Of a stretch of 61,229 nucleotides of DNA, positions 34,684 through 44,604 are shown one piece after another. The translations under genes and the position numbers were made by a program. The DNA comes from Arenibacter latericius DSM 15913 (lineage in GTDB: Bacteria; Bacteroidota; Bacteroidia; Flavobacteriales; Flavobacteriaceae): assembly GCF_000424985.1 (NCBI RefSeq), contig NZ_AUKX01000035.1, positions 1 to 61,229 of the forward strand, given 5' to 3'. Every line of letters begins with the position of its first letter. Within the stretch, counting starts at the first letter, position 1. The notes below the pieces were generated by a model. That model saw nothing but the letters and a program-made list of their open reading frames with translations. It had not been told where the DNA came from and did not search any database.

Positions 34684-37185
34684 TTATTTGGGATCTAAAA
34701 TATGGTCGATCCTTGTTGCCGCATCTTGCAAGTGATATTTACTCATAGCATCTGAAGTTCGGCCAATTGCATTTTTAATATCCCGTCTTAGTATATTTAA
34801 TTCTGCTCTGGCTATAGATCGTATGTCGGACTGACTTGTATTTATGGCAGTAGATTTCTGGTAACCACCCCTACTAGATTTTTTACCTTCACTTTCTGCA
34901 ACCATTAAATAAGCTAAACGATCTATATGTGCTTTTTGTAGGTTTCTTCTATAGGTGTCTATAGTTTTACCATTTCTAATTTCCGACCAAATTCCCTTTC
35001 TAAGGTCGTTCATCATAGTTATAAGGCTATAGGCTTCTTTCCCATTCATAGCCTCATTTTCAATCAGCCTAGCCATTCTGCCTAAGCTTAGAATGTTATT
35101 TAAGGTTCTTTCCTGCATATTTCTTATGCGCTCTACAGAACCAGAATACTCTATTTTGCTAAAAATGTTTTGGTCAATAAGCCATTCTGGTGTTTTAAAG
35201 AGTTGATCTTGAATAAAAGCCATGCAGTTTTGTTGATGGGTTTTATCTACTGGAGTGTACACAGGGCCTTCCTGATCGAACGTCTTTAGATTCTCATATA
35301 CACCACCTATATTATTGCTTACATGCCCCATGTATCTGTTTAATTGGCCAATAACTTGTCCGTACATAATATTTAGGTCCTCATAATCTTTTCCGTCTTC
35401 AGCGGTCCATTCTACGAGTTTTGGAACAATTAGTTTTAGGTTGTTTATTCCATAAGTGCTTGCTTTAATTGCATCGTCACCTAAGTCTTCAGTTTGCGAA
35501 CTAGGGTCTACTACATCGCCTACTTGTTGGTGACCGAAACGATAGAGAGGGTCTCCGGCATGCTTTAAGATCCAGCTATCTAATATCTCTTTCTCTTCGG
35601 TTTCCGATTTATCTAAGATTGGACGGTAACCCCAACTAATGGCATATTTATCATAAATACCAATATTAGGCATTAGGGCAACGTCTTTATCTCCTGGTTG
35701 TGCTATATAATTAAATCTAGCATAATCCATAATAGAAGGTGCCGTACCGTATTTTTTGGTGAATGTAGCAGATCTTAATGAGTCAACAGGGTAAGCAGAA
35801 CTACTTCCCATGTTGTGGGGTAATCCTAAAGTATGACCAACTTCATGGGAGGATACAAAACGTATTAAACGGCCCATTACTTCATCCTTAAAAGCAACAC
35901 CTCTAGCGTCTGGATTAATAGCAGCAGTCTGTACAAAATACCAGTTTCTTAGCAAAGACATTACATTGTGGTACCAGTTTATATCAGATTCTAATATTTC
36001 ACCAGTCCTAGGGTCGCTTACATGAGGCCCATTAGCATTAGGTATAGGAGAGGCTAAATAACGAACTACAGAATACCTAACATCTTCAGGAGACCAATCT
36101 GGATCTTCTTCAATTGATGGTGGATCCTTTGCTAAGATGGCGTTTTTAAAACCTGCAGCTTCAAAAGCTACTTGCCAATCTTCAATTCCCTGTTTTATAA
36201 AAGGCACCCATTTTTCTGGGGTAGCTCTGTCTATATAATAAACAATCGGTTTCTTCGGTTCTACCAATTCACCTCTTTTGAACTTTTCAATATCCTCGTC
36301 CTTTACCTCTAATCTCCAACGATCTAAAAAGGCAATCCGCTTGCTTTCTTGTACATCAAGACCATAATCTATCTGACTACTTGTAAACCAACCAACACGA
36401 GGGTCAAACTTTCTTCGCTTCATAGGTTCTTCTGGAAGTAGCACCATAGAATTGTTAATTTCTATAGAGATAGATCCCACAGTAGCATTAGATGGCGGAT
36501 TGCTTGCAGCGTAGGTTTTTACGTGTCTTGCCTCTATGTTTAGAGGAAAACTTTTAAGTGACTCTATATAGCTTCTAGAGGTTTCTAAACGGGAAACTTT
36601 ATATTGTTTTCGGTAATATTCTGGCATCCCTAAAGCCTTTACATCCTGCTCAAATAGTTCGTTTACCTCAATAACGGTGGCTAATTTGGTAGAATCTTTT
36701 TTGTTTATCGCTTTTATGTCGAATGCATATAAAACTGGCTCAAAATTAGAGTTCACTACCGCTTCATAAATCGGGAGTGAGTCAGATGCCACTACATCGT
36801 GACTAACCACTCTAAGAAGTACCTTTTCATCCTTCTTTTCCCATCTAAGGACTTTGGTGTTAATCTTTCCTCCGCCAAATCCTATTCCACTTGCGGTCTT
36901 GGAAATTCTGCTAACCATTAGCATTTCTTTTGTGAACAGGCTATCTGGAATTTCATAATAGTATTTGTTATCTACTTTATGCACGTTAAAAAGCCCCTTA
37001 TCTGTGATAGCTTCTTTGGTGATAACCTTTTCATAGGGCTCAATTCCTCCTTTTTTTGATTTCTCTGAACCTTTTGCCTGTTCTGTCTTTTTAGATTTCT
37101 TTTTAAAAATCTGGGCTTCCGTAGTTGTAATAAAGCCCAATAACAAAAATGCGCAGAGCATTTTTGGGAGTTGATTTGTAAACAT
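34684..37185 (-). CDS. Exported zinc metalloprotease (DUF5117/DUF4953 type)
   Basis: An 833-aa protein with a signal peptide (about 1-24, ending TEAQ) and a Lys-rich start of the mature part. A DUF5118/DUF5117-like N-terminal region (about 50-290) precedes a zincin core, HEVGHTLGLPH at H447, H451 and H457 (HExxHxxGxxH), then a Met-turn-like SIMDYARFNY. The C-terminal half matches DUF4953. It is a predicted extracytoplasmic peptidase of metzincin type. Its substrate is unknown. The gene stands alone, after a long untranscribed-looking gap. Confidence 0.9.
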   Translation of the reverse strand: MFTNQLPKMLCAFLLLGFITTTEAQIFKKKSKKTEQAKGSEKSKKGGIEPYEKVITKEAITDKGLFNVHKVDNKYYYEIPDSLFTKEMLMVSRISKTASGIGFGGGKINTKVLRWEKKDEKVLLRVVSHDVVASDSLPIYEAVVNSNFEPVLYAFDIKAINKKDSTKLATVIEVNELFEQDVKALGMPEYYRKQYKVSRLETSRSYIESLKSFPLNIEARHVKTYAASNPPSNATVGSISIEINNSMVLLPEEPMKRRKFDPRVGWFTSSQIDYGLDVQESKRIAFLDRWRLEVKDEDIEKFKRGELVEPKKPIVYYIDRATPEKWVPFIKQGIEDWQVAFEAAGFKNAILAKDPPSIEEDPDWSPEDVRYSVVRYLASPIPNANGPHVSDPRTGEILESDINWYHNVMSLLRNWYFVQTAAINPDARGVAFKDEVMGRLIRFVSSHEVGHTLGLPHNMGSSSAYPVDSLRSATFTKKYGTAPSIMDYARFNYIAQPGDKDVALMPNIGIYDKYAISWGYRPILDKSETEEKEILDSWILKHAGDPLYRFGHQQVGDVVDPSSQTEDLGDDAIKASTYGINNLKLIVPKLVEWTAEDGKDYEDLNIMYGQVIGQLNRYMGHVSNNIGGVYENLKTFDQEGPVYTPVDKTHQQNCMAFIQDQLFKTPEWLIDQNIFSKIEYSGSVERIRNMQERTLNNILSLGRMARLIENEAMNGKEAYSLITMMNDLRKGIWSEIRNGKTIDTYRRNLQKAHIDRLAYLMVAESEGKKSSRGGYQKSTAINTSQSDIRSIARAELNILRRDIKNAIGRTSDAMSKYHLQDAATRIDHILDPK

Positions 37186-37604: not shown

Positions 37605-39002
37605 CTAAAATACAATAGTATCGGTGGCAATTTTGGGGAGGTGGTAATTCCCATAATCAATATTTAAACCATTAGGTAGGTCCTCGTTTTTAGATTCGGG
37701 TTGTTTAACCAGGGAATTAAAAAGGAAGAGATTTTTTAAATGTTTAAATGAAGTAATATTAGAAAGGTGTTCCCCATTAAACTTAGAGTGAGTTAAATTA
37801 AGGGTCCTTAGGTGCTCCAAAGGTGCTAACTTTTCAATGTTTTTTCCTGTTATATTGGTATGACTTAAATTTAGCGTGGTGAGATGTGGAAATGTCGCAA
37901 TATGCTCAAAAATGGCATCTGTTACTTCTGTACTTCCTAAATCTAGATAAACTATTTGTTGTTTTACTGAGTTCAGCAATTTTATGTCATCATCGGAGAA
38001 GGAGGGCATGTTAATGCAAGAGACCCGGATTAAATTATTTGACTCGCTAATTGGCTCTATGTGGAATCCGTGTTTTCTTATCGCTTTTATAGTATCCTCA
38101 GGTATAGCTTCTACCTTAACATCTGGATATTCAGAAGTATTTTCCTTGCGGAAAAAGGAGGTAAACAAATGTTTTTTAAGTTCTAACTCTCCAATGTTTT
38201 TATCAAGGGATGAGCCTGTTTCTATCCAAGCCTTAATCACTTCAATTTCTTCCTTAGATAATTGTGTCTTTTCTTTAGGTGGCATATGGTCTTCATGGTC
38301 TTGTGGAAGAATGAGTCTCGCATAAAGAGGACTGTTTTTAGCATCTTTCGGAATTATAACATCTCCATTTTCACCCCCTTTTAAAATGCCTTCAGCATCG
38401 TTTAATTGTAGGTCTCCTTTACTTTTATTAGGACTGTGGCAGCTTAAACATTTATTGTTTAAAATGGGTTGTATAACTTGATTGTAAAAATTAGATTCTT
38501 CCCAAGATGCCTCCTCTAGTTTGGGCATTTCATAAGAATTAACTTTAAATCCCAAAGCAATTTTTATACTAGTAGGCAAAGGTTCTAAGAGATAGTCGGA
38601 TCCATGAGTAATGCTGCCACCAAGATGACCGGTCATTGAAATTAGAAATAATAGAGAAAAAGATAATATAATTTTAGGTATTCGCTGTAAAAACTCCACC
38701 TTGGAATTTTCTTTAACCCTTAGGTACATTAGCCCAGAAAATAGAGCAGTGGCTATTCCCACCCATAAATGAATTTTCACGGTATCAAATGAGTACCCCT
38801 CACCTATATAAAGTAAATATCCACTAATACAGGCAATTGTTGCTGCTATAAAGCCCCATAGAAAAACCTGTGCAATTACTTCCTCTTGTTTATTTTCCTT
38901 GCGATCTATCCATTGAAGTAATAAAGCAGTAATTATAAATCCTATTGGTAAATGAACGACTATGGGATGTAAACGCCCTATGAGTTGTTGGATGACTTCC
39001 AT
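37605..39002 (-). CDS. DUF2231 membrane protein with cytochrome c motif and LRR
   Basis: This 465-aa fusion has four or so membrane helices of DUF2231 type (about 12-135) with conserved H12 and H17. A PSCyt1-like heme region follows with CLSCH at 185-189, and a C-terminal leucine-rich repeat region (about 350-450) holding units such as LTTLNLSHTNITGKNIEKLA. It is a candidate membrane electron carrier for the exported enzymes encoded with it. It is the last gene of the four-gene operon, 3 bases after the TIM-barrel gene. The function is unknown; the fusion order is directly visible. Confidence 0.85.
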   Translation of the reverse strand: MEVIQQLIGRLHPIVVHLPIGFIITALLLQWIDRKENKQEEVIAQVFLWGFIAATIACISGYLLYIGEGYSFDTVKIHLWVGIATALFSGLMYLRVKENSKVEFLQRIPKIILSFSLLFLISMTGHLGGSITHGSDYLLEPLPTSIKIALGFKVNSYEMPKLEEASWEESNFYNQVIQPILNNKCLSCHSPNKSKGDLQLNDAEGILKGGENGDVIIPKDAKNSPLYARLILPQDHEDHMPPKEKTQLSKEEIEVIKAWIETGSSLDKNIGELELKKHLFTSFFRKENTSEYPDVKVEAIPEDTIKAIRKHGFHIEPISESNNLIRVSCINMPSFSDDDIKLLNSVKQQIVYLDLGSTEVTDAIFEHIATFPHLTTLNLSHTNITGKNIEKLAPLEHLRTLNLTHSKFNGEHLSNITSFKHLKNLFLFNSLVKQPESKNEDLPNGLNIDYGNYHLPKIATDTIVF

Positions 39003-39005
39003 AAA

Positions 39006-39887
39006 TTAATTACTCAATTTTAGACGTTTTTTTATCGCTTCCATCATAAATACATTGGCTTCCCATTGGTCAGACAATGGGATTCTCGTATAGGGTAAGG
39101 TAGGCATATAATCTGCAGGGCCAAATTCTGTGGTGACGGTAAATATGCCCTTATTTTCTTTCCAACCTTTTTTGATGATGGCTTCCCAAATATCCAAATG
39201 TTTTTCCAAAGCATTTGTCCATTCAGGGGCTTTGGGATCGTTCACCTGAGGTCCCTGGCTATGGCCAATACGTGCATGAATGTGATGCGACCGGTCAATA
39301 ACTGGTGCAAGCAAATTTTCCTGTCCTTGAAGTAAGGATTCATGAACCATCATCCAATGACTCACGTCCAAGGTGAGTTTTAAATTGGGGATTTGTGTTA
39401 AAAATTTATTGGTTTCTGGAAGGCTATAGCTAAATCGGCCCCTGTGCGTTTCATGATAAACGGGAATATTATATTTTGAACTCAGGGAATTGGCGGCTTC
39501 TATAAATGCTTGGTTTTGTTCAAAAGTAAAAAAATCGCTACCGGTATGACAGTTGACTAAAAAAGGATTCCATTTCAGAATTTCTTCTAAGTTATTCGTA
39601 TAGTCCTCTAAACTTTCTTTAAATGGCAAACCTTTATTGGTGCCATGTAAAAAAATAAATTTAAGCTCATGTCTTGCGATTGCCTCTTTTAAATTGTTTT
39701 GTGCATCAATTTTAGATGGTCGCCAAACTTCTATGCCGTCATACCCTGCTGCTTTTACACGCGCGCAAAACGCATCATAATTTAATTGATTACCCCAATC
39801 TGTTTGAAAAAACAATATTTTTTCCTGAGCTAGGGAGGTGGAGACAAAACTAATAAGGAGAATTATAAAGATTTTAATTGAATGCAT
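39006..39887 (-). CDS. Exported sugar phosphate isomerase/epimerase-like TIM barrel
   Basis: A 293-aa protein of the AP_endonuc_2 TIM-barrel group, with a signal peptide (about 1-20, ending LAQ). Metal-site-type acids and histidines appear in GYDGIEVWRP, NCHTGSD, YHETHRG, DVSHW and HIHARIGHSQG. The family normally includes cytosolic sugar isomerases and epimerases; the exported form implies a substrate outside the cytoplasm. It sits between the DUF1501 and DUF2231 genes, 21 and 3 bases away. Confidence 0.85.
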   Translation of the reverse strand: MHSIKIFIILLISFVSTSLAQEKILFFQTDWGNQLNYDAFCARVKAAGYDGIEVWRPSKIDAQNNLKEAIARHELKFIFLHGTNKGLPFKESLEDYTNNLEEILKWNPFLVNCHTGSDFFTFEQNQAFIEAANSLSSKYNIPVYHETHRGRFSYSLPETNKFLTQIPNLKLTLDVSHWMMVHESLLQGQENLLAPVIDRSHHIHARIGHSQGPQVNDPKAPEWTNALEKHLDIWEAIIKKGWKENKGIFTVTTEFGPADYMPTLPYTRIPLSDQWEANVFMMEAIKKRLKLSN

Positions 39888-39908
39888 AATGATAGTGTAG
39901 TTGGTTAG

Positions 39909-41417
39909 TTAGGCTAGAATTTCGTGTATTACGTGTCCTTCTACATCAGTTAATCGGAATGGTCTGCCCTGAAATTCATAGGTAAATTGCTCATGGTTAA
40001 ACCCTAATAGATGTAGAATAGTAGCATGTACATCGTGAACGGAAACTTGTCCCTCTAGGGCAGAAAAACCAATTTCATCTGTAACTCCCCAACTGGCTCC
40101 TTTTTTTATTCCGCCTCCTGCCATCCACATGGTAAAGGCATCCCCATGGTGGTCCCGTCCTAAATAGGCCATTTTTTGACCTTCCCTGTTTTCTAACATT
40201 GGCGTTCGTCCAAACTCCCCTCCCCATACCACTAAGGTTTCTTCTAATAACCCTCTTTGTTTTAAATCTAGGAGTAGGGCTGATATAGGTCGGTCTATTT
40301 CCGTACACTTATTTCTAAGGCCAAGATCAATAGAAGTATCGTGTCCTGTTCCATGGCTATCCCAGCCCCAATCGAACAACTGAACAAACCGAACTCCGTC
40401 TTCTACTAGTTTTCTTGCTAGCAGACAGTTATTAGCAAAAGACTCCTTCCCTGGCTCAACTCCGTACATTTCTCTGATATATTCTGGTTCGTTGTTGATG
40501 TTCATTACTTCTGGAACGGCAGTTTGCATCCTATATGCCATTTCGTACTGATTAATACGGGCTAAAATCTCCGGGTCGGCATATTCATTAAATTCGGCTT
40601 TGTTTATTTTATTTATAGCATCAATGGTACTCTTTTTTAAATTTCTACTGATACCTTTTGGGTCTTCTATATAAAGTACTGGGTCTCCTATAGAACGACA
40701 TTGTACTCCCTGGTAAACCGATGGTAAAAATCCGCTTCCCCATACACTCTTCCCTGCATCAGGTGTTTTTCCACCCGAAGTTAGTACTACAAAACCGGGT
40801 AGATTTTGGTTTTCCGATCCTAAGCCGTAAGTGACCCATGACCCAATACTAGGCCTTCCTAATCGTGGGCCACCGGTATGCATAAATAGTTGAGCAGGAC
40901 CGTGATTAAACTGATCTGTATTTACAGCTTTTAAAAAGGCTACTTCATCTACTACTTTAGAAAAATGGGGCAGAAAGTTAGAAACCCAATTCCCCGATTC
41001 TCCATGTCGTTTAAACTCAGCTTGTGGACCTAGCAGTTTAGGTGTTCCCCTAATGAATGCGAATTTTTTTCCCTCTAATAGGGATTGCGGGGTAGCCTGT
41101 CCGTCCAATTTGTGAAGTGTAGGCTTATAGTCGAACATCTCTAACTGTGAAGGAGCCCCGGCCATATGTAGGTAAATAACCGATTTTACTTTTGCTGGGA
41201 ATGGTGGCGGCATCGAAGCCAAGGGGTTTATATCGCGCTCCGTAAGTGCTATTTTTCCATTATCACTATCGCCTAGAAAGGAATTACAGCCCATAAACAT
41301 GGAGCCAAGGGCTAATCCGCCCATCCCTGCAACACATTCCTTAATAAAATGCCTTCGGGTTTTTGCCTGTATATCCCTGTTTATCTTTTCTTTTATAAGT
41401 CGGTCTAAACTGTTCAT
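39909..41417 (-). CDS. DUF1501 protein with Tat-type signal
   Basis: A 502-aa exported protein. A twin-arginine motif RRHFIKE (21-27) is followed by a hydrophobic stretch and a lipobox-like MGC (C44), so it may be a Tat-translocated lipoprotein. The DUF1501 domain has YLHMAGAPSQLEMFDYKP, DWGWDSHG and GGEFGRTPMLE, all with metal-binding-type Asp, Glu and His. DUF1501 is related to the alkaline phosphatase/sulfatase fold, but no activity is established. It pairs with the PSCyt gene 2 bases upstream, as in planctomycetes. Confidence 0.9.
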   Translation of the reverse strand: MNSLDRLIKEKINRDIQAKTRRHFIKECVAGMGGLALGSMFMGCNSFLGDSDNGKIALTERDINPLASMPPPFPAKVKSVIYLHMAGAPSQLEMFDYKPTLHKLDGQATPQSLLEGKKFAFIRGTPKLLGPQAEFKRHGESGNWVSNFLPHFSKVVDEVAFLKAVNTDQFNHGPAQLFMHTGGPRLGRPSIGSWVTYGLGSENQNLPGFVVLTSGGKTPDAGKSVWGSGFLPSVYQGVQCRSIGDPVLYIEDPKGISRNLKKSTIDAINKINKAEFNEYADPEILARINQYEMAYRMQTAVPEVMNINNEPEYIREMYGVEPGKESFANNCLLARKLVEDGVRFVQLFDWGWDSHGTGHDTSIDLGLRNKCTEIDRPISALLLDLKQRGLLEETLVVWGGEFGRTPMLENREGQKMAYLGRDHHGDAFTMWMAGGGIKKGASWGVTDEIGFSALEGQVSVHDVHATILHLLGFNHEQFTYEFQGRPFRLTDVEGHVIHEILA

Positions 41418-41419
41418 CG

Positions 41420-44155
41420 CTAGGATTTAGTTAAAAATTCGTCCAAATTCATAATGGAGTTAGCCACTACGGTCAGTGCAGCTAATTTTGCATCTCCATT
41501 TACATCATTAGGTATAAATTCTTTTATATTGTCCGGATTAATTTTGAAATCGGATAGGGATTGATCGTACAATTCCTTTAGAACTTCGAGCTTTTCTTGA
41601 TTGATATCTGTCAGAACTGCTCTGCTATATCCCTTGCTTATTCCTATCTCTACTTCCTTGCTTTGTTCCATATATTTTGCCAAATGATAGGCGGTTTCCA
41701 AATACACAGGGTCGTTAAGGGTGACCAATGCTTGTAGTGGGGTATTCGTTACCGTTCTTCTTACTGTAGATACCTCCCTACTCCCTGCATCAAATGTTAA
41801 AAATGAAGGGTAGGGGCTAGTTCTTTTTAGGTAGGTGTACAATCCTCTCCTATATTTATCTTCCCCCTTGCTTTCTACCCAATTACCTCCGTTATAAACA
41901 GTTTGCCATATTCCATCTGGTTGTGGGGGCATTACACTGGGGCCATACATTTTAGCACTCAACAGTCCTGAAACCGCTAGGGCTTGATCTCTTATCTGCT
42001 CTGCACTTAGGCGTATTCTAGGACCTCTAGCATAAAGTGTGTTGTTAGGATCCAAATTAAATAGCTTTGCATTACTCTTAGAGCTTTGCTGGTAGGTGCC
42101 AGACATAACAATGTCCTTAACCAATGCCTTAATACTCCATTGATGCTCGTTCATAAATCTTAGAGCTAACCAATCTAATAATTCAGGGTGGGAAGGGGGA
42201 TCAGATTGTGAACCCATATCCTCTAATGTAGCTACTATACCTCTCCCATAAAGCTGATGCCATACACGATTAACAAGGGTGCGTGCAGTAAGGGGATTTT
42301 CTTTACTGACTAACCATTTGGAGAGTCCCAATCTATTTTTTGGCCATGCGTCATTCCATTTGTTCAGACTTTGTGGGGTGGCTGGTTCAACAGTATCTGT
42401 TTTCATAAGCCAATTGCCACGCTCAAAAACTTGGGTAGTTCTTTTTTGATAGTCGGGGTTTTCTATTACAATTGGTAAAGTGGGTACATGGGAATTTATT
42501 AGCTCCATAAAGTTGTCTTCCATATTAGCTTGTGCAACATTTTCGGAATTAACTTCAGGTAGAAATGCAAACCAAGTGATATAGCTAGTAGGGCTGGTTG
42601 AAGGTATTTTATCATTGTTTACCTCTATATATAGGTTTATTTTCCCTTCTACTTTTTTAAAGGGGAATTTTTGTATTACTCTTCCCTTTGTTTTATTGAT
42701 GGTAAACTGAGCTAAAATTTCACCTTCAGAATTATCTTGGCGAATAGTCATTTTGGTACCGTCTATTCCGGAGGAATACCTTAGGTAAATGAAATTGGAG
42801 TTTTGGGTATACACATCATCAAGGTGGCACGAGCCATTGTCTCGTAGGGCTAGCCATTTGGTGTCGGCTAAATTTCCATTGGTATAATTATACGCTAAAT
42901 GGGCATGGTAAACAGGCTCTAAATACTTTATGAATTCCTTATAGGAATTAGCGACCTCTTTGTTGTTATTGTTAGAGATCCACTCATAAATCTGATCTAT
43001 TTGCGACTTTTGATTTTCGTTGTAAAATCTAAGGTTAGGCTCATCTTCAGAAGTATCCTCATCTCTAGAATTATTGAAAAATGCCATAAGATTATAATAC
43101 TCCCTATGTTTAAATGGGTCGTAGGTGTGGGAGTGACATTGTACACAGCCAATGGTGGTGCTTTGCCATACTTCAAAAGTGGTGTTTACCCGGTCTATTA
43201 CAGATGCTACTCTAAACTCTTCATCTTCCGTTCCTCCTTCGTCATTACTCATTGTATTTCTATGGAAGGCAGTAGCAATTAATTGGTCATCAGTTGGGTT
43301 GGGCAATAAATCTCCTGCTAATTGTTCTATAGTAAACTGGTTAAAGGGCATGTCTTTATTGAAAGCCTTAATAACCCAATCACGATATCTCCACATGGTT
43401 CTTCCCATATCTTTTTCATAGCCTTTTGTGTCGGCATAACGAGCGTGGTCTAACCACCAACTCGCCCATTTTTCACCAAAGGAAACATCGGCTAATAAGA
43501 TGTCTACCAATTGTTCATAGGTGATTTTTCCCGAGTTAAAATTCTCGTATAAACCAGCTTTTGGTGGGAGTCCTGTAATGTCTAACGCTAATCGTCTTGC
43601 AATAACACTAGATGCAGCAGGTACACTAGGTTCTATTCCGTTTTGCTCTAGCTTTCTTAGAATAAAATGGTCAATACTATTTTTTACAAAATCATCTGTC
43701 TTATAATTAGCTAAACTTGCCAATTGAGTGGTGGTAGGCACTTCTACCTCTTCGGGTAAGGTATATGCCCAATGTTGACCCCATTTAGCACCTTCATCTA
43801 TCCATCTAGTTAATAAATCAATTTCTTCCTCTGATAGTTTGGGCTTTTGATACGGCATACGGAGTTCTGGATCGTCCTCATGCAAAAGTTGTATCATACG
43901 ACTCTTTGTGGCATTACCCGGAATTATTGCAGGAGTACCCGATTCGGTGTTAGCAAAAGCTTCTTCTTCAAACAATAAGCTAAATCCACCATTTTTTTTA
44001 ACACCTCCGTGACAGGTGATACAGTTCTTATTTAGGATGGGTTTTATCTGAGTGCTAAAATCTACAGTTTCTTCTGGTTTAAAAATATCCCACGTAAAAA
44101 GCCCTAGGACAATAAACCCAGCAATAAATAAAAGTATGTATAGTCTATTTTTCAA
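41420..44155 (-). CDS. PSCyt1-DUF1549-DUF1553 multidomain cytochrome
   Basis: A 911-aa exported protein with an N-terminal membrane anchor (about 5-22). PSCyt1 holds CITCH at 45-49, followed by the DUF1549 (PSCyt2) region with a second heme-type CVQCH at 337-341 and the WWLDHARYADTKGYEKD block. DUF1553 (PSD1) fills the C-terminus (MNRVWHQLYGRGIV-like LVNRVWHQLYGRGIVAT). These domains are of unknown function and are best known from Planctomycetes. It is the first gene of the operon, preceded by a ~400-base gap. Confidence 0.92.
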   Translation of the reverse strand: MKNRLYILLFIAGFIVLGLFTWDIFKPEETVDFSTQIKPILNKNCITCHGGVKKNGGFSLLFEEEAFANTESGTPAIIPGNATKSRMIQLLHEDDPELRMPYQKPKLSEEEIDLLTRWIDEGAKWGQHWAYTLPEEVEVPTTTQLASLANYKTDDFVKNSIDHFILRKLEQNGIEPSVPAASSVIARRLALDITGLPPKAGLYENFNSGKITYEQLVDILLADVSFGEKWASWWLDHARYADTKGYEKDMGRTMWRYRDWVIKAFNKDMPFNQFTIEQLAGDLLPNPTDDQLIATAFHRNTMSNDEGGTEDEEFRVASVIDRVNTTFEVWQSTTIGCVQCHSHTYDPFKHREYYNLMAFFNNSRDEDTSEDEPNLRFYNENQKSQIDQIYEWISNNNNKEVANSYKEFIKYLEPVYHAHLAYNYTNGNLADTKWLALRDNGSCHLDDVYTQNSNFIYLRYSSGIDGTKMTIRQDNSEGEILAQFTINKTKGRVIQKFPFKKVEGKINLYIEVNNDKIPSTSPTSYITWFAFLPEVNSENVAQANMEDNFMELINSHVPTLPIVIENPDYQKRTTQVFERGNWLMKTDTVEPATPQSLNKWNDAWPKNRLGLSKWLVSKENPLTARTLVNRVWHQLYGRGIVATLEDMGSQSDPPSHPELLDWLALRFMNEHQWSIKALVKDIVMSGTYQQSSKSNAKLFNLDPNNTLYARGPRIRLSAEQIRDQALAVSGLLSAKMYGPSVMPPQPDGIWQTVYNGGNWVESKGEDKYRRGLYTYLKRTSPYPSFLTFDAGSREVSTVRRTVTNTPLQALVTLNDPVYLETAYHLAKYMEQSKEVEIGISKGYSRAVLTDINQEKLEVLKELYDQSLSDFKINPDNIKEFIPNDVNGDAKLAALTVVANSIMNLDEFLTKS

Positions 44156-44570: not shown

Positions 44571-44604
44571 AGAAAAAAGGGTCGAGAATTAATTCCCAAC
44601 CCTT
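44571..44604 (-). terminator. Probable terminator of lysS
   Basis: On the minus strand a hairpin (about 44604-44577, imperfect in the middle) is followed by TTTTTTCTTTTT. It lies 48 bases beyond the lysS stop. Confidence 0.65.

Follow-up and report, generated by a model that had tools for sequence, protein, structure and literature searches.

A four-gene operon on the minus strand of a 61,229-nucleotide stretch of the Arenibacter latericius DSM 15913 genome (contig NZ_AUKX01000035.1, positions 1 to 61,229; this whole stretch is called the window here) encodes what sequence comparison supports as a real, conserved extracytoplasmic unit. Its genes, in the order C, D, T and M, are separated by 2, 21 and 3 bases and encode a PSCyt1-DUF1549-DUF1553 protein (C), a DUF1501 protein (D), a xylose-isomerase-like TIM barrel (T) and a DUF2231-PSCyt1-leucine-rich repeat (LRR) protein (M). 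The operon is a new version of the known, still unexplained DUF1501 module. We propose, giving the idea an even chance, that C-D-T-M is a carbohydrate-directed extracytoplasmic redox module in which C and D would oxidise a glycan-derived sugar, electrons would pass via M to quinone and T would remodel the product. A first-pass annotation of this DNA had described the four genes at these coordinates, the three gaps and three CxxCH heme-binding sites, all of which we confirmed: the four proteins contain exactly three such sites (C residues 45-49 and 337-341; M residues 185-189). Its view that every product lies outside the cytoplasm or in the membrane is borne out as a prediction by export signals and hydrophobic segments; TatC is encoded in the genome.

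As the first-pass annotation required of a genuine system, the four families co-occur elsewhere. An alignment of 11 T orthologues was searched against named genomes, yielding 308 relatives, the best 80 of which were examined. Open reading frame (ORF) calls placed C, D, T and M consecutively on one strand in 75 of these 80 T loci, and a further locus (L111) was complete by tblastn, so that the unit is intact in 76 of 80, mostly in Flavobacteriaceae and Algoriphagus; this figure is conditional on T because the loci were found via T. One other locus (L089) meets a contig edge directly after T, and in another (L091) T stands by itself. The nearest named relatives of T and D belong to Arenibacter and other Flavobacteriaceae. 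In a second survey, D and T were both searched in the same 247 Bacteroidota genomes, with at most seven candidates per genome scored. Among the 21 T relatives recovered, the nine strongest had E values of 2.4e-98 or better, and a DUF1501 match adjoined eight of them (five of the six lying outside the query alignment, which had included G000, G001 and G032). The exception, G198, contains in-frame stops. Among the matches listed, no DUF1501 match adjoined any of the 12 weaker T relatives.

The four-gene unit belongs to a wider C-D(-M) core. The window's genome contains two DUF1501 matches and four PSCyt1 matches, all of them in the operon and in one cluster on contig 52, where C-D-M occurs without T; the four-gene version is present in one copy. 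DUF1501 matches above 460 bits were found in 29 of the 247 Bacteroidota genomes, the window's genome included, which calls for a correction of the first-pass statement that sets of this kind are known chiefly from Planctomycetes. Of 66 Ds called at 60 other loci in 27 Bacteroidota genomes (L129 yielded none), 63 have C immediately upstream. After D, these loci have M, T and then M, a different gene and then M, or no M; that different gene encodes, in several loci, a protein with a twin-arginine (RR-type) leader, and the one tested has NHL repeats. T-linked Ds clustered together (4 changes versus a shuffled mean of 19.6) in a quickly built tree of 83 D proteins, 16 of them from hand-picked named loci. 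Three Ds inside this cluster have C-D-M with no T between D and M, and the genomes of these close relatives gave no T match at E 1e-15, for which reason T was rejected as an obligatory part. Different loci combine C-D with T plus M, with an NHL beta-propeller plus M or with only M, and some have no M at all, so T falls outside the obligatory core and, by these gene-order comparisons, is an optional insert in it. The four-gene set proposed by the first-pass annotation stands as a conserved unit, without T as a fixed member. At one locus (L172 6746-7999), an ApeA_NTD1 and HEPN_Apea protein, defence-like, lies between D and M. Genes around the contig 52 cluster (L001 1666-2800, 6967-7515 and 14435-15329) look split or shortened; by eye they are BNR-like, beta-helix-like and FG-GAP-like, and the breaks may be assembly errors or decay.

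Heme sites are a constant feature of C. Two CxxCH motifs were found in all 74 C proteins longer than 850 aa from the T loci of named genomes, and the mean in 2,000 shuffles of C was 0.0 as printed. The second motif, together with H343, Y345, D346 and P347, is invariant in 41 of 41 C proteins. A lipobox-like Cys ahead of the first CxxCH was seen in only 19 of the 74, and in its place the window C carries a hydrophobic segment at the N-terminus. The TTG start of C is plausible because a relative that starts with ATG (L025) has the same beginning. Pfam places PSCyt1 at residues 45-101, DUF1549 at 161-364 and DUF1553 at 607-862; between the last two, the structure model of C predicts a CBM6-like carbohydrate-binding fold. 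A repeat of the fold search covered mainly residues 361-535, and lower-ranked matches of the segment were unrelated proteins sharing the common beta-sandwich; CBM6 was not among the Pfam families matched in 41 C proteins (E 0.01). All five long Cs tested (1050-1084 aa), as well as a Catenovulum C, carry Laminin_G_3 in the same position, and the three short ones tested (729-784 aa) have no recognised domain between DUF1549 and DUF1553. The C size classes differ in this stretch, which holds the CBM6-like fold in the C model, Laminin_G_3 in the long Cs tested and no recognised domain in the short ones. A PDB sequence search with C alone returned no match; its profile matched FoxE weakly (E 0.0044), and a CTI match, spanning 44 residues of the cytochrome region, was set aside.

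D is assigned to DUF1501 over residues 78-501 (E 1.8e-149), and all 76 D proteins longer than 480 aa show an RR-x-F motif close to the N-terminus with a lipobox-like Cys after it. Beyond membership of a domain of unknown function, D is probably a Tat-exported, divergent protein of the sulfatase/alkaline-phosphatase fold. Aligned with S1 sulfatases by hhalign, it reached a probability of 93.7 and an E value of 1.8e-7 over its later two thirds, and its structure model, which is weak (predicted local distance difference test score, pLDDT, 55.7), matches sulfatases and phosphodiesterases in fold. A sequence search of the PDB with D alone found no match, and the D profile matched LtaS at E 0.037. 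Where S1 sulfatases have their formylglycine Cys, D has His172, in 146 of 146 sequences (a count excluding the very divergent L164_10, which was kept in the D tree); the S1 sulfatase motif, which we take to be C/S-x-P-x-R, is absent. Among chosen representatives, D is the most conserved of three proteins, with 67-80% identity to the window protein, the corresponding ranges for C and M being 50-77% and 34-68%.

T matches AP_endonuc_2 (E 4.5e-10; 40.1 bits versus a cut-off of 31.1). Residues E146, D174, H177, H202, H204, R206 and E254 are invariant in all 17 aligned sequences, comprising 11 operon orthologues and six relatives from elsewhere; E146, D174, H202/H204 and E254 presumably fit a xylose-isomerase-like metal site, the ligands being assigned by analogy. 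Leaders are found on all 11 operon Ts (six Tat-type, five Sec-type) and on none of the six paralogues, which begin at the barrel. The T N-terminus is hydrophobic, with a 12-residue Kyte-Doolittle mean of at least 2.0 in 74 of 79 proteins and at least 1.5 in all 79. PDB searches with T alone and with T profiles gave weak matches to mostly unrelated chains, the best being 4kw2 ('uncharacterized protein', E 0.0013) and Art22 (E 0.025-0.036), and the profiles did not match a solved lyase. At least four of the six leaderless paralogues adjoin phytanoyl-CoA dioxygenase-like genes, named by eye. The window's genome also encodes another relative of the TIM barrel (35%; L035 9564-10379, contig 15 of G000), next to two RR-leader proteins that look oxidoreductase-like by eye; an in-frame TAA appeared in it in one search and not in another.

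M combines DUF2231 (residues 11-131), PSCyt1 (185-244) and LRRs (about 352-407). One CxxCH was present in 76 of 77 M proteins longer than 430 aa from the T loci of named genomes. In 113 M proteins chosen by length above 430 and exactly one CxxCH, H12, H17, H78, H126 and H133 of the membrane domain, all in or near hydrophobic segments, were invariant, as were M240-P241; the Cys conservation in this set exists by construction, because the sequences were picked for one CxxCH, and the His conservation is unaffected. As the basic stretches of M fall in the presumed first and third loops, the positive-inside rule would put both ends and the His residues on the outer side, beside the heme-c domain; we can only infer this topology, since the hydropathy scan brought three of the four expected helices above its cut-off. 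Against the PDB, M matched LRR proteins through its repeats, among the matches listed. An F5/8 type C domain is present in the single long M that was tested.

Table 1. Coordinates of the operon genes, their domains and the upstream hairpin, in window positions
Feature	Positions	Strand	Remarks or basis
C gene (PSCyt1-DUF1549-DUF1553)	41420-44155	minus	911 aa, TTG start
PSCyt1 heme-c domain of C (CITCH, residues 45-49)	43853-44023	minus	Pfam and motif
DUF1549 (PSCyt2) domain of C	43064-43675	minus	Pfam
Predicted CBM6-like beta-sandwich of C, residues ~413-535	42551-42919	minus	structure model; missed by Pfam
DUF1553 (PSD1) domain of C	41570-42337	minus	Pfam
D gene (DUF1501)	39909-41417	minus	502 aa
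Tat signal of D with lipobox-like Cys, residues 21-44	41286-41357	minus	sequence
His172 of D at the sulfatase formylglycine-Cys position	40902-40904	minus	alignment
T gene (xylose-isomerase-like TIM barrel)	39006-39887	minus	293 aa
M gene (DUF2231-PSCyt1-LRR)	37605-39002	minus	465 aa
DUF2231 membrane domain of M	38610-38972	minus	Pfam
PSCyt1 heme-c domain of M (CLSCH, residues 185-189)	38271-38450	minus	Pfam and motif
Leucine-rich repeats of M	37782-37949	minus	Pfam
Terminator-like hairpin, 12 pairs, between lysS and operon	44577-44604	minus	sequence scan

In the proposed mechanism, the carbohydrate-binding module (CBM)-like domain of C would keep a glycan-derived saccharide close to a C-D active site, where C with D would oxidise it or open it oxidatively. 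Electrons would travel from the C hemes to the heme c of M, then through its His-rich membrane domain, perhaps via a b-type heme, to the quinone pool. T would isomerise, epimerise or beta-eliminate the oxidised sugar, like the enzymes that act after C3 oxidation in the 3-keto-glycoside route, and the product would then be imported. The first-pass annotation had suggested an extracytoplasmic redox modification of a sugar-like compound. Its sugar-like target agrees with the CBM6-like fold modelled in C, the lectin domains of sister Cs and glycoside hydrolase (GH) neighbours on plasmids, and the architecture of the module is supported; we infer the reaction, its substrate and which way the electrons run. 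A more specific version, which is possible but doubtful, is that C-D would be a new flavin-free, heme-dependent saccharide oxidase with an interchangeable lectin slot and a sulfatase-fold His partner, that M would represent a novel class of cytochrome linked to quinone, and that what becomes of the product would depend on the accessory gene, for a TIM barrel or an NHL propeller, that lies between D and M.

Gene neighbourhoods provide further context. In the contig 52 C-D-M cluster, a GH95 gene lies upstream of C with one ORF between them. A tblastn search of D against 72,556 plasmid records returned five. Two Catenovulum plasmids and one Saccharobesus plasmid, from gammaproteobacteria whose sources are listed as algae or algal mud, carry C-D among or near GH43, GH115, GH98, GH88 and fucP; a Haliscomenobacter plasmid has C-D near TonB-receptor and SusD-type genes; and the fifth record is from Singulisphaera, a planctomycete. 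Saccharobesus litoralis has a C that lacks a PSCyt1 match, and D; one small gene comes next, and then genes for cytochrome c' and cytochrome b561, a pair that may substitute for M or be a chance neighbour. Around T-less loci (118 flanking proteins from 33 of 54 loci), a rough enrichment test found five LacI regulators where about 0.1 would be expected, from 88 in 20 genomes (~92.7 Mb) and assuming roughly one gene per kilobase; this excess is not an independent test because three come from one genome and two from one genus (L136 and L152 in G001; L144 and L146 in genus g119). Domains and some of the neighbours support a link to carbohydrates for the family as a whole; for this operon the support comes from the predicted fold.

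Several observations weigh against the proposed module. Besides the uneven origin of the LacI regulators, no GH family was among the 25 commonest families in the 118 T-less flanks, in which sulfatases numbered two, and the Saccharobesus cytochromes may be unrelated neighbours. The operon's own neighbours in the window, lysS and a protease gene, are housekeeping-type genes rather than glycoside hydrolases. Recurrent flanks of the 80 T loci are likewise housekeeping-type genes and an SLC13-type transporter, and a GH2-like family, named by eye, recurs in only four. The genes can also part company: Arenibacter amylolyticus (L040) keeps T-M, having lost C and most of D (L040 8593-8970), a Pricia metagenome-assembled genome (L083, 582-6423) has T-M without C-D, and the three relatives described above dispense with T. 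The D model is weak, and no flavin or NAD dehydrogenase was among the Pfam matches of the four operon proteins.

The same proteins can be read in other ways. Electrons might flow in reverse, from quinol through M to C, which would activate or reduce something at the glycan surface, as has been proposed for cytochromes that carry a CBM and supply lytic polysaccharide monooxygenases with electrons. This is unlikely, in that an exported isomerase-like barrel would better suit the handling of small sugars, but it has a precedent in the CBM-cytochrome c fusion Cbp2D of Cellvibrio, whose X183 cytochrome domain, according to the part of the source available, could start copper reduction of Lpmo10B (PMC12542752), and the CBM6-like fold and heme domains do share one chain in C. 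Alternatively, D could be the actual enzyme, a sulfatase-fold hydrolase or transferase on esterified glycans, with C and M binding or anchoring and their hemes sensory or structural. The greater conservation of D and its fold match to sulfatases and phosphodiesterases would suit such a role; the His found at the nucleophile position in every D counted and the retention of heme sites in all 74 C proteins and in 76 of 77 M proteins make it improbable.

Exported proteins with several heme sites beside a membrane domain with conserved His would also be in keeping with a cytochrome-c-peroxidase-like system for protection from peroxide or oxygen. Such a system has no obvious place for lectin or CBM-like domains or for sugar-gene neighbours, and Pfam assigned no peroxidase family to the four proteins, so that we regard it as quite improbable. 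Finally, DUF1501 clusters have been tied to the internal membranes of Planctomycetes-Verrucomicrobia-Chlamydiae (PVC) bacteria (Kamneva 2012, through PMC4452313 and PMC4960237), and the parts of these two sources available report the module preferentially in PVC bacteria with internal membranes. That the operon serves internal membranes is nevertheless very improbable. As a general role it is disfavoured by the occurrence of the module in Bacteroidota, with strong DUF1501 matches in 29 of 247 genomes and C directly upstream of 63 of 66 Ds, and on plasmids of gammaproteobacteria from algae; a planctomycete does, however, account for one plasmid record out of the five. We retain sugar oxidation by C-D with electron transfer through M as the working proposal.

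Upstream of the operon, lysS lies beyond the 12-pair hairpin; four terminator-like sites were found in the whole region versus a shuffle mean of 6.2, so there is no excess. Downstream of M is a Met-zincin (DUF5117/DUF4953 by Pfam) protease gene (window 34684-37185). Flanking genes vary among the 80 T loci: lysS flanks the operon in 29 and a Met-zincin-like protease gene is near it in 15. An SLC13-type transporter, assigned by a Pfam search of one relative's protein, lies downstream of M in 32 and immediately after it in 24; in some relatives it sits between M and the protease gene, a position where the window has none. The transporter was rejected as a fixed operon member because the window has none after M and the genome's best match (46%) is on another contig. 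In the Pricia locus, T-M is preceded by a cytochrome c biogenesis-like gene and followed by FAD-oxidoreductase-like genes, named by eye.

Two sugar-modifying systems invite comparison with the proposed module: LacABC, a flavin dehydrogenase, and the 3-keto-C-glycoside lyase PuCGE, whose alpha subunit we take to be an AP_endonuc_2 barrel. LacABC lactose 3-dehydrogenase with its DUF1080 hydrolase, as far as the source was available, resembles the proposal in that a membrane-bound periplasmic system oxidises the sugar and the oxidised sugar then has its own dedicated enzyme (PMC9007349), but the operon has no flavin dehydrogenase or DUF1080 match (Pfam, E 0.01). The PuCGE alpha subunit is described, in the part of the source available, as a metal-dependent enzyme acting on a 3-keto sugar (PMC13273386); T differs in being exported, and no beta-subunit gene was seen beside it. 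Cellvibrio Cbp2D likewise fuses a CBM to a c-type cytochrome in a glycan-breakdown protein, but its own domains are CBM2, FN3 and the YceI-like X158, and DUF1549/DUF1553, D, T and M go unmentioned in the available part of its source (PMC12542752). S1 sulfatases have the fold and the profile alignment over the later two thirds in common with D, which differs at His172.

The closest known system is the DUF1501 module of PVC bacteria, in which a PSCyt2-PSD1 protein likewise has a conserved family of neighbours, some members carry sugar-binding modules and the function is unexplained. In the available part of He 2017 (PMC5615132), PSCyt/PSD genes of Verrucomicrobia are described with conserved neighbours and CBM fusions, their functions being, per the authors, entirely unknown; Rhodopirellula baltica has 41 copies each of DUF1549 and DUF1553, according to the part of PMC2754498 available. 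The operon shares with this module a DUF1549-DUF1553 protein directly beside a DUF1501 protein, and export signals. It differs in an exported TIM barrel and a DUF2231-cytochrome-LRR protein within a four-gene unit, in a CBM6-like fold missed by sequence models, and in its nearest relatives, which are Flavobacteriaceae in place of a preferential presence in PVC bacteria. In the open-licence literature we found no paper pairing DUF1501 with DUF1553; the portions available on related terms offered no function beyond 'redox' or carbohydrate guesses, and titles and abstract openings contained no description of the C-D-T-M set.

As a compact four-gene version that is single-copy and conserved in cultured Flavobacteriaceae, the operon makes the function of DUF1549 and DUF1553 proteins addressable by ordinary genetics. 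It points to glycan chemistry instead of cell plan and, if the proposal is true, would add an extra redox route to marine glycan turnover.

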